The translations under genes were made by a program, and so were the position numbers. From the NCBI RefSeq assembly GCF_001011115.1, contig NZ_CP008874.1, positions 434,001 to 498,000 on the forward strand: a stretch of 64,000 bases of DNA, given 5' to 3'. Positions 2,825-41,798 of the stretch are shown one piece after another; within the stretch, counting starts at the first letter, position 1; each line of letters starts with the position of its first letter. The notes beneath the pieces were generated by a model. It ran no database searches, was not told the origin of the DNA, and worked only from the letters and a program-made list of their open reading frames with translations. Source of the DNA: Halanaeroarchaeum sulfurireducens (GTDB lineage Archaea > Halobacteriota > Halobacteria > Halobacteriales > Halobacteriaceae).

Positions 2825-5800
2825 TTACTGCGACGCTCCCTCGTTCCCGAGGGATCGGGGGAGTGCGGCTTCGAGCTCCTCGGCCGGGTGTGGCGGTTGT
2901 CCCTCGGCGACGTCGCTGTCCTCGAACTGGGTGCGACAGGAGGCCCCGGGCGCGGTGAGTTCGTCTCCGTCGCTCTCTCGGACGAGGTCGAAGACCTCCT
3001 CGCCGACGGCCTCGCTCAGGGAGTGGTGCTCGGCCTCGTACCCGAAGGTGCCTGCCATCCCACAGCATCCCGAGTCGAGTTCGTCGACGTCGTAGCCCAC
3101 GCGCTCGAGTAGGGCCGCCGCGTGGTGGTCCTTGTTCGTCCCCTTCTGGTGGCAGTGGCCGTGATAGGTCAGCGTCTTCTCGGGGGCGTCCCAGGCCACG
3201 TTCTCGTCCAGTCCGAAGACGTCGACGTACTCCGAGACGCCGTAGGCGTTCTCCGCGAGCGTCTCGACCTCGCGTCCCGACAGGAGGTCCAGGTAGTCCG
3301 ACTGGGCCATCACCGCGTCGGAGGGCTCGACGAAGACGACGTCCCAGTCCCGTCGAACCCGCGGCGCGAGAGTGCGGACGTTCTCCCTGGCGATGTCGCG
3401 GGCCTTATCGATGAAGGACTTCGAGTAGGCGGGCCGGCCGCTGTCGGTCCGGTCGGCCAGGTCGACGTGGACACCGACGGCTTCGAGGACGCGGATGGTC
3501 GCCGTCCCGACGTCGACCCGGCTGTAGTTCGTGTAGGTGTCCGCGAAGACGACCGCCTTCCGTTCGGCGGCTGACGCCGGCACCTGGCTTCCCCCCCGCT
3601 TCGTCCACCAATCCTCGAGGGTGGTCCGCGTAAACTCGGGCAGCGAGCGCTCCCTGGCGATGCCGATGGTCTCCTCGAGGAGCGTCCGGGCGCCGGGTAC
3701 GTTCGTCGCGGCGTTGGCCACCGGTGCGAGCGTCGACGCGAGGCTCGCGAGCGTGTCGACGTTCGCGAAGAGTTTGTCCCGCAGGGACGAGCCGTGGCGG
3801 TCGTGGTAGGCGTTCACCACCTCGGCTTTGAGCTTGGCCATGTCCACGCCGCTGGGACAATCCGTCTTGCAGCCCTTACAGGAGATACAGAGGTCGAGGA
3901 CTTCCGTGACGAACTCTTCGGAGAGGACCTCCTCGGGGAGTTCGCCGTTCATCGCGGAGCGGAGCAGGTTCGCCCGCCCCCGCGTGCTCGTAATCTCTTC
4001 CTCGGCGGCCCGGTAGGTCGGACACATCACGCCGCCGGTGGTGTCGGTGTAGCCCGTACACCCCCCACAGCCGTGGCAGAGTTCGGTCATGCCCTGGAAG
4101 CCGTTCTCGTTGTCCCAGTTGAGTTCGGGCTCGAAGGGCACCTCGAAGTCGTAGTCGGGGCCGTAGCGCAGGTCGGCGGTCATGTCCGTGATCCCCGCCT
4201 CGTCCCCGCCGACCGGGCCGGGGTTGAGGATCCAGTCGGGGTCGAAGGTGGCCTTCAACTCGCGGAAGCGAGCCCAGAGGTCCTCGCCGTAGAACCCTCT
4301 GTTCCACTGCGTGCGCACGCGACCATCGCCGTGCTCGCCGGAGATGGCCCCGTCGTATTCCGCCACGAGGTCGGTCACCGCGTCAGCGGTCGCCTCCAGC
4401 TTCTCGACGCCGTCCTGCGTCTTGAGGTTCAGCAGTGGCCGGATGTGCAACACGCCGGGCCCGGCGTGGGCGTAGTAGGAGGCGAAGGTGTCGTGTTCGT
4501 CGAGGATGTCCTGGAAGTCAGCGACGTACTCCGGGAGGTTCTCGGGCGGGACGGCGGTGTCCTCGATGTACGTCCAGTGTCGCTCGTCGCCGGTGTTCGA
4601 GAGGAGGATCGGCAGCCCCGCCTTGCGCATCTTCCAGAAGTCGGCCTGGCGCTCCTCGTCGTGGGCCACCATCGCGTCGACGGCGTACCGTTCGGCGTCA
4701 GTTCCCACGTCTGGATCGGGGTCGGGACCGTCGCCGGTGCCGGAGTCGCCGGCCACGTCCGCATCCGGCACCCGGTCGGCGAGCAGGGTGGCGACCTTCC
4801 GCCTGGCCGCCGCCTCCGAGTCGGCGTAGAACTCCACGAGCAGCGTCGAGTCGGTCCCCTCCGGGAGCATCCCGACGACGGAAGCGAACTCGGGCGTACC
4901 CCGGGCCATGTCGAGGAAGACGTCGTCCATGACCTCCACCGCGGCGGGGTCGTGTGCGAGGATGGGCTCGACGTCCTCCATCGCGTCCAGCAGGTCGTCG
5001 TAGGTGAGCATCGCCACGGCGGTCGTCTCCGGGATCGGCTCCAGGGAGACGGTGGCCTCGGTGATCACCGCGAGAGTCCCCTCGCTCCCGGCGAGCAACC
5101 GACCCACGTTGATCTCCCCCCGTTCCTCGGCGTCCTCGACGAGAACGTCCAGGTTGTATCCGGAGACGTTGCGCTTGAGATCCGGATACCGTTCGTGGAT
5201 CTCGTCGGCGTCCTCCTCGATGACGGCTCTGACGGCGTCGTAGATGCGTGCCTCCAGGTCGCCGTCCGGGTCGGCGACACGCTCGAGGTCCGCGAGATCC
5301 ATCCAACCGAACTCCGTGACGGTCCCGTCGGCCAGCACCGCGGTGACGGATTCCACGTAGCCGTCGGCCTTCTCGTACATGAGCGAGTGCGATCCGCTCG
5401 AGTTGTTCGCGATGCAGCCGCCGAGGACCGACTTGTCGCCCCACGCCGGGTCGGGGGCGTACTTCAGCCCCGTCGGTTCGAGGTCGGCGTTCAGCTCGGC
5501 GAGCGTGATGCCGGGCTCGGCGGTCGCCGTGGCCGCCTCCGCATCGATGTCCAGGAGATCGGACATGTACCGCTTGAAATCGAGGACGATGGCCTCGTTG
5601 ACGGTCTGGCCGGCGAGGCTCGTCCCCCCGCCTCGGGGGAGGACCGGGATTTCCCGTTCGCTGCAGTAGGTGACGATCTCGGCGACGTCCGCGGTCGTCC
5701 GGGGCCGGGCGATTCCGATCGGTTTCACCTCGTACATGCTCCCGTCCGTCGCGAACAGCTGTCGGGAGTAGTCGTCGAACTGGACGTCCCCGTCGATCCG

Positions 5801-10424: not shown

Positions 10425-10940
10425 CCTTCGCTCCCACCGCTCTTCCCTACCGCTCCCCCAACTTCACCTACCCTCATTCCCCTTTCCCAGCTTCCCCACT
10501 CTTCACTTCTCCCGCCTCTTCCCCACTCTTCACTTCTCCCGCCTCTTCCCCACTCTTCACTTCTCCCGCCTCTTCCCCACTCTTCACTTCTCCCGCCTCT
10601 TCCCCACTCTTCACTTCTCCCGCCTCTTCCCCACTCTTCACTTCTCCCGCCTCTTCCCCACTCTTCACTTCTCCCGCCTCTTCCCCACTCTTCACTCTAT
10701 CTTCCCCTTACTCTCCACTCTCTTCCATCCACTCCCTCTACCTTCTCCCATACATACCCAACTCCCACTCTCTTCCCCACCCATCCACCCCCTCCACTCT
10801 CGCTCTCTCGCTTCCATCCACTCCCTCTACCTTCTCCCACACAAACCCCAACTCCCACACTCTCCTACTCCCATCCACACCCATCCATCCCCCTCCCCTC
10901 TCCCCCACCCGCTTCTCCTCCCCTCTCCTTTCCGGGACAC
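10425..10940. repeat. About 500-base G-depleted, pyrimidine-rich tract
   Basis: The plus strand is C, T and A with only a handful of G over about 500 bases, in a genome that is otherwise G+C balanced. It includes the 27-base tandem array (10491-10696) and, further on, two copies of CTTCCATCCACTCCCTCTAC (about 10722 and 10811). It is the whole spacer upstream of the site-2 protease gene. Reading frames across it encode only low-complexity Ser/Pro/Leu-rich sequence and are not credible genes. Confidence 0.85.
10491..10696. repeat. 27-base tandem repeat, seven full copies plus a partial
   Basis: The unit starts CTTCCCCACTCTTCACTTCT and ends CCCGCCT. Seven perfect copies run from 10491 to 10679, followed by 17 bases of an eighth. 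The unit length equals that of the mutL repeat but the sequence is unrelated. No spacers, so this is not CRISPR. Confidence 0.97.
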
Positions 10941-18201: not shown

Positions 18202-18262
18202 TGGCCCTGGCGGATTCGAACCGGAGGAAGACTCGCTTCGCTCGTCTTCCAGAGTTCGAATC
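18202..18262 (-). repeat. tRNA 3'-end fragment plus hairpin, proximal copy
   Basis: On the minus strand GGTTCGAATCCGCCAGGGCC (18203-18222) matches the 3' end of the CAU tRNA exactly. It is fused to the same GGAAGAC/GTCTTCC hairpin (18226-18250). An outer pair GATTCGAAC (18213-18221) / GTTCGAATC (18254-18262) extends the stem, so the T-loop is mirrored at both ends. Confidence 0.88.
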
Positions 18263-18294
18263 ACGGCCATTTTCCTCGCAGGCCGCTCGGAAAA

Positions 18295-18369
18295 TGGGCC
18301 CTGGCGGATTCGAACCACCGACCACGCGGTTATGAGCCGCGCGCTCTAACCAGACTGAGCTAAGGGCCC
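18295..18369 (-). tRNA. tRNA with CAU anticodon, probably tRNA-Ile2
   Basis: 75 bases with a complete cloverleaf: acceptor GGGCCCT/AGGGCCC, discriminator A, anticodon stem CGCGG/CCGCG with loop CTCATAA, T-arm GGTGG-TTCGAAT-CCGCC. CAU can be Met or agmatidine-modified Ile. It lacks the usual initiator start, and haloarchaeal elongator tRNA-Met genes typically carry an intron, so Ile2 is favoured. Two copies of its 3' end lie downstream. Confidence 0.93.
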
Positions 18370-24434: not shown

Positions 24435-24546
24435 ACGCCACTGAACGATCTGCCACCCGATACCGGTTGTGTAGACTCACATCGCTGTTTGAGATATCGC
24501 TGCCAATCGTAACCGCTTTACATCGGCGCGGAGTAGCGATGGGTGA

Positions 24547-24619
24547 GTCCTGATAGGGTAGTGGACTATCCTCTTGGCTTGCGGAGCCAGGGACCGGAGT
24601 TCAAATCTCCGTCAGGACG
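24547..24619 (+). tRNA. tRNA-Arg(GCG)
   Basis: 73 bases. Acceptor GTCCTGA/TCAGGAC, anticodon stem TTGGC/GCCAG with loop TTGCGGA, T-arm CGGAG-TTCAAAT-CTCCG, discriminator G. Its 3' end is the first copy of a motif reiterated downstream. Confidence 0.95.
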
Positions 24620-25102
24620 TCATTCTCTCGGCATCACGCGGCGAGCGGCCGCCACGCGCTCGCCACGTGGTCGAATGACGTCCTGACGTGCCCCCGGTCG
24701 TTCCTCCCGGGGACTCCGTCAGGACGGTCTTTCAGCATGGCCTGACGAGCAAACTGGGGAATGTCGCTGAAAGGAAATCCGAGAGATTTGAGCAGACAAG
24801 TCGCAGCCCGGGAAGCGACCGAAGGGAGCGACCCGGAACGTCTTGGCGAGTTCAAATCTCCGTCAGGACGTCATTCTCTCGGCATCACGCGGCGAGCGGC
24901 CGCCACGCGCTCGCCACGTGGTCGAATGACGTCCTGACGTGCCCCCGGTCGTTCCTCCCGGGGACTCCGTCAGGACGGTCTTTCAGCATGGCCTGACGAG
25001 CAAACTGGGGAATGTCGCTGAAAGGAAATCCGAGAGATTTGAGCAGACAAGTCGCAGCCCGGGAAGCGACCGAAGTGAGCGACCCGGAACGTCTTGGCGA
25101 GT
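24601..25102. repeat. 251-base tandem duplication starting in the tRNA-Arg T-arm
   Basis: Two copies, 24601-24851 and 24852-25102, are nearly identical (for example GAAGGGAG versus GAAGTGAG near the ends). Each begins TCAAATCTCCGTCAGGACGT, which is the tRNA-Arg T-loop to 3' end plus trailer. A third, divergent start (GTTCAAATTTCCGCCAAGAC) follows at 25101 and forms a 10-base hairpin with the CGTCTTGGCG before it. A 73-residue minus-strand frame recurs in each copy but looks fortuitous. CTCCGTCAGGACG also occurs once inside each unit (24714, 24965). Confidence 0.97.
24610..24688. repeat. Nested inverted repeat containing the tRNA-Arg 3' end
   Basis: CGTCAGGACGTCATTC (24610-24625) is perfectly inverted as GAATGACGTCCTGACG (24673-24688), with an inner pair GGCGAGCG / CGCTCGCC. 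The left arm contains the acceptor 3' strand and trailer of tRNA-Arg. The structure is repeated at 24861-24939 in the second tandem copy. Confidence 0.9.
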
Positions 25103-25133
25103 TCAAATTTCCGCCAAGACGCTACCGTCGTTT

Positions 25134-25355
25134 CTTTCAGTCACACCGTGGGATGAGATGCCACCCACGCAGCAAATGCCGGCCCCCTTGGCGATCCTCT
25201 CCCGGAGCAGACAACACCGACGAAACGTGTGATCTCGGGTGGGTCCACTGGTGTCTGAAGGAAGCCACCATCTGGCCCGTCCCCGCTCGCCTTGAACCTG
25301 TTCGTCACAAACGTTATATTTCTACCGTTGCAATAATTGCCGAGGTGTGTGACCA
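25134..25355. other. Spacer with no gene recognised
   Basis: Between the tandem tRNA-derived repeats and the gene at 25356. It contains an AT-rich stretch near 25307-25325 (CGTTATATTTCTAC) that could be the TATA region of that gene. Nothing else is supported. Confidence 0.5.
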
Positions 25356-41651: not shown

Positions 41652-41704
41652 GCCCGAGGCGGGATTTGAACCGGAGGAAGACGTGCTCACTCGCTTCGCT
41701 CGTC
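41652..41704 (-). repeat. tRNA-Asp 3'-end fragment with the same linker element
   Basis: Bases 41652-41672 duplicate the T-arm and acceptor 3' end of tRNA-Asp (41727-41747). They are followed by GAACCGGAGGAAGAC (41668-41682) and ACTCGCTTCGCTCGTC (41689-41704), both identical to the element beside the CAU tRNA, here with a 6-base insert between them. Confidence 0.88.
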
Positions 41705-41725
41705 GTTCGATGAGTGTTGGAAAAG

Positions 41726-41798
41726 CGCCCGAGGCGGGATTTGAACCCGCGTCACGACCGTGACAGGGTCATATGATAGGCCACTACACCACCCGGGC
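41726..41798 (-). tRNA. tRNA-Asp(GTC)
   Basis: 73 bases. Acceptor GCCCGGG/CTCGGGC, discriminator G, anticodon stem TGACC/GGTCG with loop CTGTCAC, T-arm GCGGG-TTCAAAT-CCCGC. Divergent from the rpo operon. A truncated 3' copy lies 54 bases downstream. Confidence 0.95.

Follow-up and report, generated by a model that had tools for sequence, protein, structure and literature searches.

Hairpin units carrying copied tRNA 3′ ends form a class-wide haloarchaeal family that includes a 251-nt tandem duplication behind tRNA-Arg(GCG) of Halanaeroarchaeum sulfurireducens

Introduction

The repeats of Escherichia coli tyrT (tyrTV) have been known for decades, as a one-off. They are tandem non-coding units lying directly 3′ of a tRNA gene and are represented in Rfam by the RtT RNA (RF00391; rttR, tpr). 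In E. coli K-12, tyrT is followed by three 178-nt units, each with 19 nt of the tRNA-Tyr 3′ end (positions 58–76, starting inside the T-loop); in the unit, the antisense sequence GGGGAAGGAT, complementary to tRNA-Tyr ATCCTTCCCC, precedes the tRNA-end copy. REP/BIME and MITE-like elements are short non-coding intergenic hairpin arrays, presumably moved in trans, and we know of none with arms matching an adjacent tRNA gene. Elements targeting tRNA genes bear a 3′ part that restores the gene (PMC4383910), and in the case of the T-loop-targeting phage Ms6, strand exchange has been placed in the 7 T-loop bases (PMC1762012). Integration of archaeal proviruses and plasmids also leaves partial tRNA genes, as described for Haloquadratum walsbyi (PMC3119063) and Thermococcaceae (PMC9897764).

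Here we analyze a tandem duplication behind a tRNA-Arg gene of the haloarchaeon Halanaeroarchaeum sulfurireducens, located in a stretch of 64,000 nt (contig NZ_CP008874.1, positions 434,001–498,000; hereafter the window, whose coordinates are used throughout unless a contig is named). The duplication had been noticed in an earlier note made from the letters alone, which proposed that it could be a tandem non-coding RNA, an array of attachment sites or a tRNA-processing decoy. In the open-access literature, no description of such haloarchaeal units was found.

Results

The Duplication at tRNA-Arg(GCG) Is Built From Two Units

The 251-nt duplication is real. In the assembly, Tandem Repeats Finder and a repeat search gave direct copies at 24597–24847 and 24848–25098, and comparison of one copy to the other showed 250/251 identical positions, with a sole mismatch (G at 24825, T at 25076). 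The third variant start that the earlier note had placed after them was also present, at 25099–25121, as a degenerate 22-mer with an 87% match. The description of the 251 nt as one repeated unit held for the length only, since each block consists of two units, Y (about 107 nt) and X (about 144 nt). Both follow a common plan, in which the tRNA end (S) is followed by a hairpin that includes the trailer (H1), by an antisense S′ corresponding to the T-arm and acceptor strand of the same tRNA, by a central hairpin (C, or H2) and by a further sense S; this succession may repeat. Units of this kind are tiny (about 70–160 nt), non-coding and situated directly 3′ of tRNA genes. The features of the window are as follows:

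24547–24619, + strand: tRNA-Arg(GCG) (ARAGORN; Rfam RF00005, 51.1 bits)
24598–24619, + strand: S, reference sequence, the last 22 nt of tRNA-Arg(GCG), tRNA positions 52–73
24620–24726, + strand: unit Y, copy 1; H1 24620–24678, S′ 24679–24688 CGTCCTGACG, central hairpin 24689–24713, short S (tRNA positions 61–73) 24714–24726
24727–24870, + strand: unit X, copy 1; H1 24727–24773, S′ 24781–24791 GAGAGATTTGA, C 24792–24848 (class A), full S 24849–24870, equal to the last 22 nt of the tRNA
24871–24977, + strand: unit Y, copy 2 (tandem duplicate); short S 24965–24977
24978–25121, + strand: unit X, copy 2; S′ 25032–25042, C 25043–25099, degenerate S 25100–25121 AGTTCAAATTTCCGCCAAGACG
18203–18294, − strand: family unit 3′ of tRNA-Met(CAT) (18295–18369, − strand); H1 about 18270–18294, S′ 18254–18269, S 18203–18222
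41652–41725, − strand: degenerate unit 3′ of tRNA-Asp(GTC) (41725–41798, − strand); S 41652–41672, without a clear S′

The 16-bp perfect inverted repeat reported around the acceptor strand and trailer was confirmed at 24610–24625 and 24673–24688; it is made of the acceptor 3′ strand CGTCAGGACG and the outer stem of H1, paired with the antisense S′ (24679–24688). The sequence CTCCGTCAGGACG, noted in the middle of the block, was likewise recovered at 24714–24726 and 24965–24977, and corresponds to a second, shorter copy of tRNA positions 61–73, the short S of unit Y. As had been stated, there is no credible protein in this region: the listed open reading frames, taken as a group, are mechanical and without family support. 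Elsewhere in the window, perfect 27-nt tandem arrays occur at 10491–10696 and 613–789 (7.6 and 6.6 copies, 100% matches).

A Y-type unit was also found 3′ of tRNA-Arg(GCG) in G001, a genome of the same genus, and in G050 and G054, which belong to other families, each time with the tRNA sequence of that genome or one mismatch to it. In G001 the order at this gene is X then Y, with one copy each. This indicated that the 251-nt tandem in the window is a recent duplication of a two-unit block inside an older array. The recent amplification proposed in the earlier note thus applies to the block and not to the units, which are old and lie 3′ of many tRNA genes across the class.

Related Units Behind Other tRNA Genes of the Same Genome

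Homologous units were sought beyond the locus, and were present at other tRNA genes of the same genome, in relatives and in other families. The tandem was searched against its own genome (G000; 2.21 Mb, two contigs), from which stretches around tRNA genes and motif matches were then taken. A unit core of 45–65 nt recurred at several other sites, nearly all of them just 3′ of another tRNA gene. Two tandem copies accompany Leu(TAG), and further genes with the core include Ser(TGA), Val(CAC), Ile(GAT) and Gly(GCC). In every case the T-loop-to-3′-end sequence of that particular tRNA comes after the core. Copy 1 of unit X shares a 45-nt core with the loci of tRNA-Leu(TAG), Ser(TGA), Val(CAC) and others. 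A C core is common to different tRNAs within one genome, and there are C families common to different tRNAs and taxonomic families (CTGCCAGTCGCAGC...GACCGTCTGGCTCC; GTAGACCGAGGTTCTGCG...CGCAGGTTCTCGGGCGT; TCAGGGA...GACCGT). The hairpin-tip motif GCGANCGNAGNGAGC was tried as a family marker and discarded: about two-thirds of its 28 genome matches were in tRNA units, and the remainder fell in other hairpins or in coding DNA without a tRNA-end copy, so the motif is not specific.

Several other features were observed in these sequences. Two tRNA-Arg(CCG) genes of G000 (G000:C1:264788–264860 and 264995–265067) lie 135 nt apart and differ at their 3′ ends; one scores weaker, and they are perhaps a pseudogene pair. 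L434 and L438 (G000:C1, about 23.1 kb and 874.9 kb) are identical stretches with a long GC-rich hairpin, probably the end of a mobile element. A dispersed repeat of about 100–130 nt occurs at many sites per genome across G005–G025, which belong to one genus, often beside tRNA genes or units (for example, L082 about 1535–1660 and L074 about 1586–1720). The stretch CACCTTTTTACTCGTCGGGTTCGCC...CAAAAATCTGGACCAAAAAC, similar to this repeat, was seen 3′ of several tRNA genes of G000.

Copies of tRNA 3′ Ends Are Widespread in Haloarchaea

All tRNA genes of G000, G001, G050 and G054, representing three families, were surveyed, and a full own copy was defined as a sequence with no more than 3 mismatches in 22 nt within 600 nt downstream of the tRNA gene. 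Full copies of the own 3′ end were found at 23/44, 19/43, 17/42 and 13/44 tRNA genes, respectively. Upstream own copies numbered 0, 0, 0 and 1 (1/173 overall), and control matches to other tRNAs 4/1066, 2/928, 0/904 and 1/1060 (7/3958 comparisons), a rate below 0.4%. When short copies were included, 27/44, 24/43, 24/42 and 19/44 tRNA genes (43–61%) carried a copy. Units were absent from Asn, Leu(CAG), Ser(GCT) and Gln(CTG) in all four genomes surveyed.

A pattern that runs from the end of C into the T-arm was present in 41/59 related genomes, and its reversed control had 0 matches in all of them. A pattern scan of named genomes extended this distribution: among the matches listed, nearly all the haloarchaeal ones were located about 65–330 nt 3′ of a tRNA gene whose 3′ end equals the copy, and they include matches in Haloferax, Halorubrum, Haloarcula, Natrinema, Halorhabdus, Halorientalis, Halovivax, Halosimplex and Halobellus. 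The bacterial matches listed in that scan did not show such a position behind a tRNA gene with a matching end. A halovirus origin of the units was also considered and set aside, since, among the matches listed, pattern scans of IMG/VR yielded no unit in any haloarchaeal virus. A non-haloarchaeal virus contig (L343, 36% GC) has, on the minus strand near 4831, a predicted tRNA-Phe with an exact 3′-end copy 164 nt downstream.

The Copies Have Exact Borders and Follow Their Own tRNA

The 103 full copies showed 94–100% identity to their own tRNA at every position from 53 to 73, falling to 33% at position 51 and to about 55% right after position 73; the limit of 3 mismatches inflates the identity within the copies and leaves the sharpness of their edges unaffected. 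A short class covers positions 61–73 only, with its edge between 60 and 61 and 97–100% identity (31 copies at 28/173 loci; control, 10/6586). Left borders occur at 53 or 61 only, on either side of the 7-nt T-loop, and on the right the copies end with the discriminator base (73). Because positions 49–51 are not copied, the copied T-arm lacks its own T-stem. A processing decoy, one of the three roles that had been suggested, found no direct support, the copied T-arm being unable to form that stem; an array of attachment sites fits best of the three, given borders running exactly from T-loop edge to 3′ end and precise presence or absence in relatives (see below), and we take it up in a modified form in the Discussion.

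T-arms resemble one another, so that a ranking of S′ against the antisense sequences of the other tRNAs carried no information, and specificity for the own tRNA was instead assessed position by position. Positions 57 and 59 vary within the T-loop; S equaled the own tRNA in 89/89 units at the first and in 88/89 at the second, and S′ did so in 85/89 and 86/89, respectively, compared with 62% and 73% agreement expected if unlinked; S′ was anchored with the own tRNA sequence, which introduces a mild bias in its concordance. At positions 62–65, concordance was 97–100% in S versus 39–80% in S′. Individual loci illustrate both behaviors. Position 59 of tRNA-Lys(TTT) differs between G000 (C) and G001 (G), and both S′ and S carry the corresponding change while the central hairpin stayed homologous. 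At positions 64–65 of tRNA-Leu(TAA), within one genus, S tracks the tRNA (...ACT, ACC and ATC in G011, G005 and G020, respectively) and S′ does not always do so. S therefore matches the tRNA more strictly than pairing with S′ demands, which points to exchange between directly repeated S copies.

Units Are Precisely Present or Absent in Relatives

Comparison of relatives revealed filled and empty loci. In one genus of the same family, a conserved T-rich flank stands directly after tRNA-Arg(TCT) in G020, G011, G018 and G023. Where units are present, this flank comes after the final S instead: G019 and G005 have one unit in between, and G024 has two. The tRNA-Leu(TAA) locus is filled, with a matching flank, in G011, G005, G022 and G020, and empty in G016–G019, G021 and G023. 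Ser(CGA) departs from this in G021 and G024, where the loss junction lies inside H1 and not at S. At Ser(CGA) of G022 (L472), a copied S is interrupted by 38 inserted nt that separate its T-stem part from its acceptor part. Loss could also occur by slippage between the 22-nt direct repeats around the palindrome, so a precise absence does not prove a precise insertion.

Between G000 and G001, seven orthologous units are 72–96% identical, compared with 47–63% for their downstream flanks and a background of 51%; at other tRNAs the units are unrelated, one set having replaced the other. The high conservation of some units above their flanks could reflect a host function.

Pairing in the Hairpins Leans Toward Structures in DNA

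G-U pairs make up 3.7% of pairs in H1 and 5.5% in H2, compared with 9.1% in tRNA genes and 11% in shuffles, and counts of G-U versus A-C mismatches in the units gave no clear G-U excess and hence no RNA signature. C(GNA)G, a class of loop that forms unusually stable DNA mini-hairpins, accounts for half of the H2 loops, and the unit hairpins contain conserved tandem G-A mismatches. In one H1, both partners had changed in 3/11 pairs across five species, as would also be expected from palindrome correction, and G-U pairs are depleted. T-rich, terminator-like trailers are often placed directly 3′ of the tRNA. An Rfam scan for known RNAs returned only tRNAs at the gathering threshold, and sub-threshold matches in the unit (sR33 and microRNA models) were judged to be chance. 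Direct support for the tandem non-coding RNA suggested earlier was thus lacking, with fewer G-U pairs than in tRNAs and with C(GNA)G loops in half of the central hairpins. This evidence leans toward DNA hairpins, with RNA possible.

Discussion

The duplication in the window is one member of a class-wide haloarchaeal family of tRNA-end hairpin units. Since its units appear and vanish precisely between relatives, the family probably recombines at the tRNA end. The best reading, which we consider evenly poised between right and wrong, is that of tiny non-coding elements, present across the class, with S as an attachment-like site, recombination in the T-loop and tandem arrays arising from exchange between S copies. 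It draws on the anatomy of the units, their exact borders, their specificity for the own tRNA, their precise presence or absence, the tracking of the tRNA by S, and the turnover and sharing of C. S would be the recombination site of the unit, and units would enter and leave through strand exchange in the T-loop, gain presumably taking place by site-specific recombination. On arrival, the S of the unit would restore the 3′ end of the tRNA gene and leave the original S, now displaced, at the far end, much as with integrative elements that target tRNA genes, except that no cargo is carried. Further rounds of exchange between S copies, or unequal exchange, would produce tandem arrays such as the 251-nt duplication and would also hold S to the sequence of the tRNA. 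With a length of about 100 nt, a unit has no coding capacity and hence no integrase gene within it; a tyrosine recombinase may act in trans, perhaps using the S′-C-S hairpin as folded DNA. A fixed cassette of attachment sites is hard to reconcile with arms that match some 20 different tRNAs; such arms must somehow be copied or converted locally. A bolder and rather doubtful proposal is that these are self-tailoring palindromic elements of both archaea and bacteria, whose arms S and S′ are taken from the target tRNA, which exchange strands at the T-loop as folded DNA, and of which E. coli tyrT would be a stray example. Such an element could settle behind almost any tRNA gene, because its arms come from the target. 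If true, such a mobile element would inherit its center alone and make its attachment sites anew from the host each time.

The units could instead be a mutational by-product, with no dedicated enzyme and no function, if fold-back template switching at the T-stem palindrome and trailer hairpin makes S′ and S, with the arrays afterwards growing, shrinking and becoming uniform through slippage or homologous recombination among the S copies. Near-perfect palindromes with few G-U pairs (3.7–5.5%, against 9.1% in tRNA genes), compensatory changes in one H1 stem within a genus, which palindrome correction also predicts, the coordinated substitution at position 59 of Lys(TTT), which affects tRNA, S′ and S alike between G000 and G001, precise loss between direct repeats and the same S-H1-S′-C-S order in E. 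coli tyrT are all consistent with this origin. However, random fold-back would give no C families common to several tRNAs and taxonomic families, the left borders fall at exactly two positions, and neither the conserved tandem G-A mismatches nor the C(GNA)G loops would be expected from perfect template copying; we therefore regard it as unlikely, though deserving of weight. A functional RNA, co-transcribed with the tRNA and acting in 3′-end maturation, termination or regulation (for example, with S′ selecting either the S of the tRNA itself or the copied one), would account for the strong hairpins, the seven orthologous units 72–96% identical beside flanks at background, the compensatory changes in H1 and the class-wide persistence. 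We find it improbable, as G-U pairs are depleted with no clear excess of G-U over A-C mismatches, T-rich terminator-like trailers often come directly after the tRNA, units vanish without trace in sister species, and the S copy lacks its own T-stem partner strand.

It is very unlikely that the units are host decoys, spare attachment sequences drawing integrating viruses and plasmids off the real tRNA gene. S does coincide with the portion of a tRNA gene carried and duplicated by integrative elements (PMC4383910, PMC1762012), and its identity to the tRNA is maintained; this model would nevertheless leave the antisense arm and the conserved center without a role, no element was found integrated into a copied S, and units are missing at Asn, Leu(CAG), Ser(GCT) and Gln(CTG) in all four genomes. 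Near-identical tandem copies are a typical assembly risk, but one base differs between the two copies in the window, and the same units occur in G001, of the same genus, in other families and in named records from many projects. An assembly artifact or chance has a negligible probability here and is excluded as an explanation of the family.

For annotation, it matters that the copies look like partial tRNA genes or like scars of provirus attachment, and can lead searches for integrated elements astray. Their distribution opens the questions of how tRNA 3′ ends get copied, why they are kept identical and whether gene-less elements use T-loop attachment.

Compared with known systems, the units resemble elements that target tRNA genes through tyrosine integrases (T-loop subclass; Islander-type genomic islands), in which the 3′ end is restored and a displaced fragment marks the far end (PMC4383910, PMC1762012). 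The block of identity runs from the crossover to the 3′ end, at exactly positions 53–73 or 61–73, and empty and filled sites are precise at Arg(TCT) and Leu(TAA), the loss at Ser(CGA) not being at S. They differ in being about 100 nt long, without integrase or cargo, with arms specific to each tRNA and an internal antisense copy; as there is no integrase capacity within them, they are not assigned to that class. Partial tRNA genes left by proviruses and plasmids are also 3′-end copies downstream of an intact gene, but they lie kilobases off, beside integrases, and are few per genome, whereas the haloarchaeal copies lie about 50–500 nt off, at about half of the tRNA genes, within a fixed hairpin plan. 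With REP/BIME and MITE-like elements, the units share the character of small non-coding palindromic repeats.

A further likeness in architecture is to the E. coli tyrT repeats, whose S-H1-S′-C-S order is that of the haloarchaeal units, these being likewise placed in tandem behind a tRNA gene with its 3′ end copied from within the T-loop or from its edge. The Rfam RtT model had no match in the window, L053, L238 or L250, nor at E ≤ 10 in 24540–25140, and it matched the E. coli positive control (L515) four times. The shared order without an RtT match suggests that the units work or arise like the tyrT repeats and are not RtT members by the Rfam test. The E. coli copy has its left border at 58 instead of 53 or 61, includes CCA and has a short S′-S pairing (10 nt). 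It is also confined to one tRNA, in enterics, whereas haloarchaeal units occur at 19–27 different tRNA genes per genome. A tyrT-like arrangement is thus found genome-wide across an archaeal class, turning an isolated curiosity into a comparative system.
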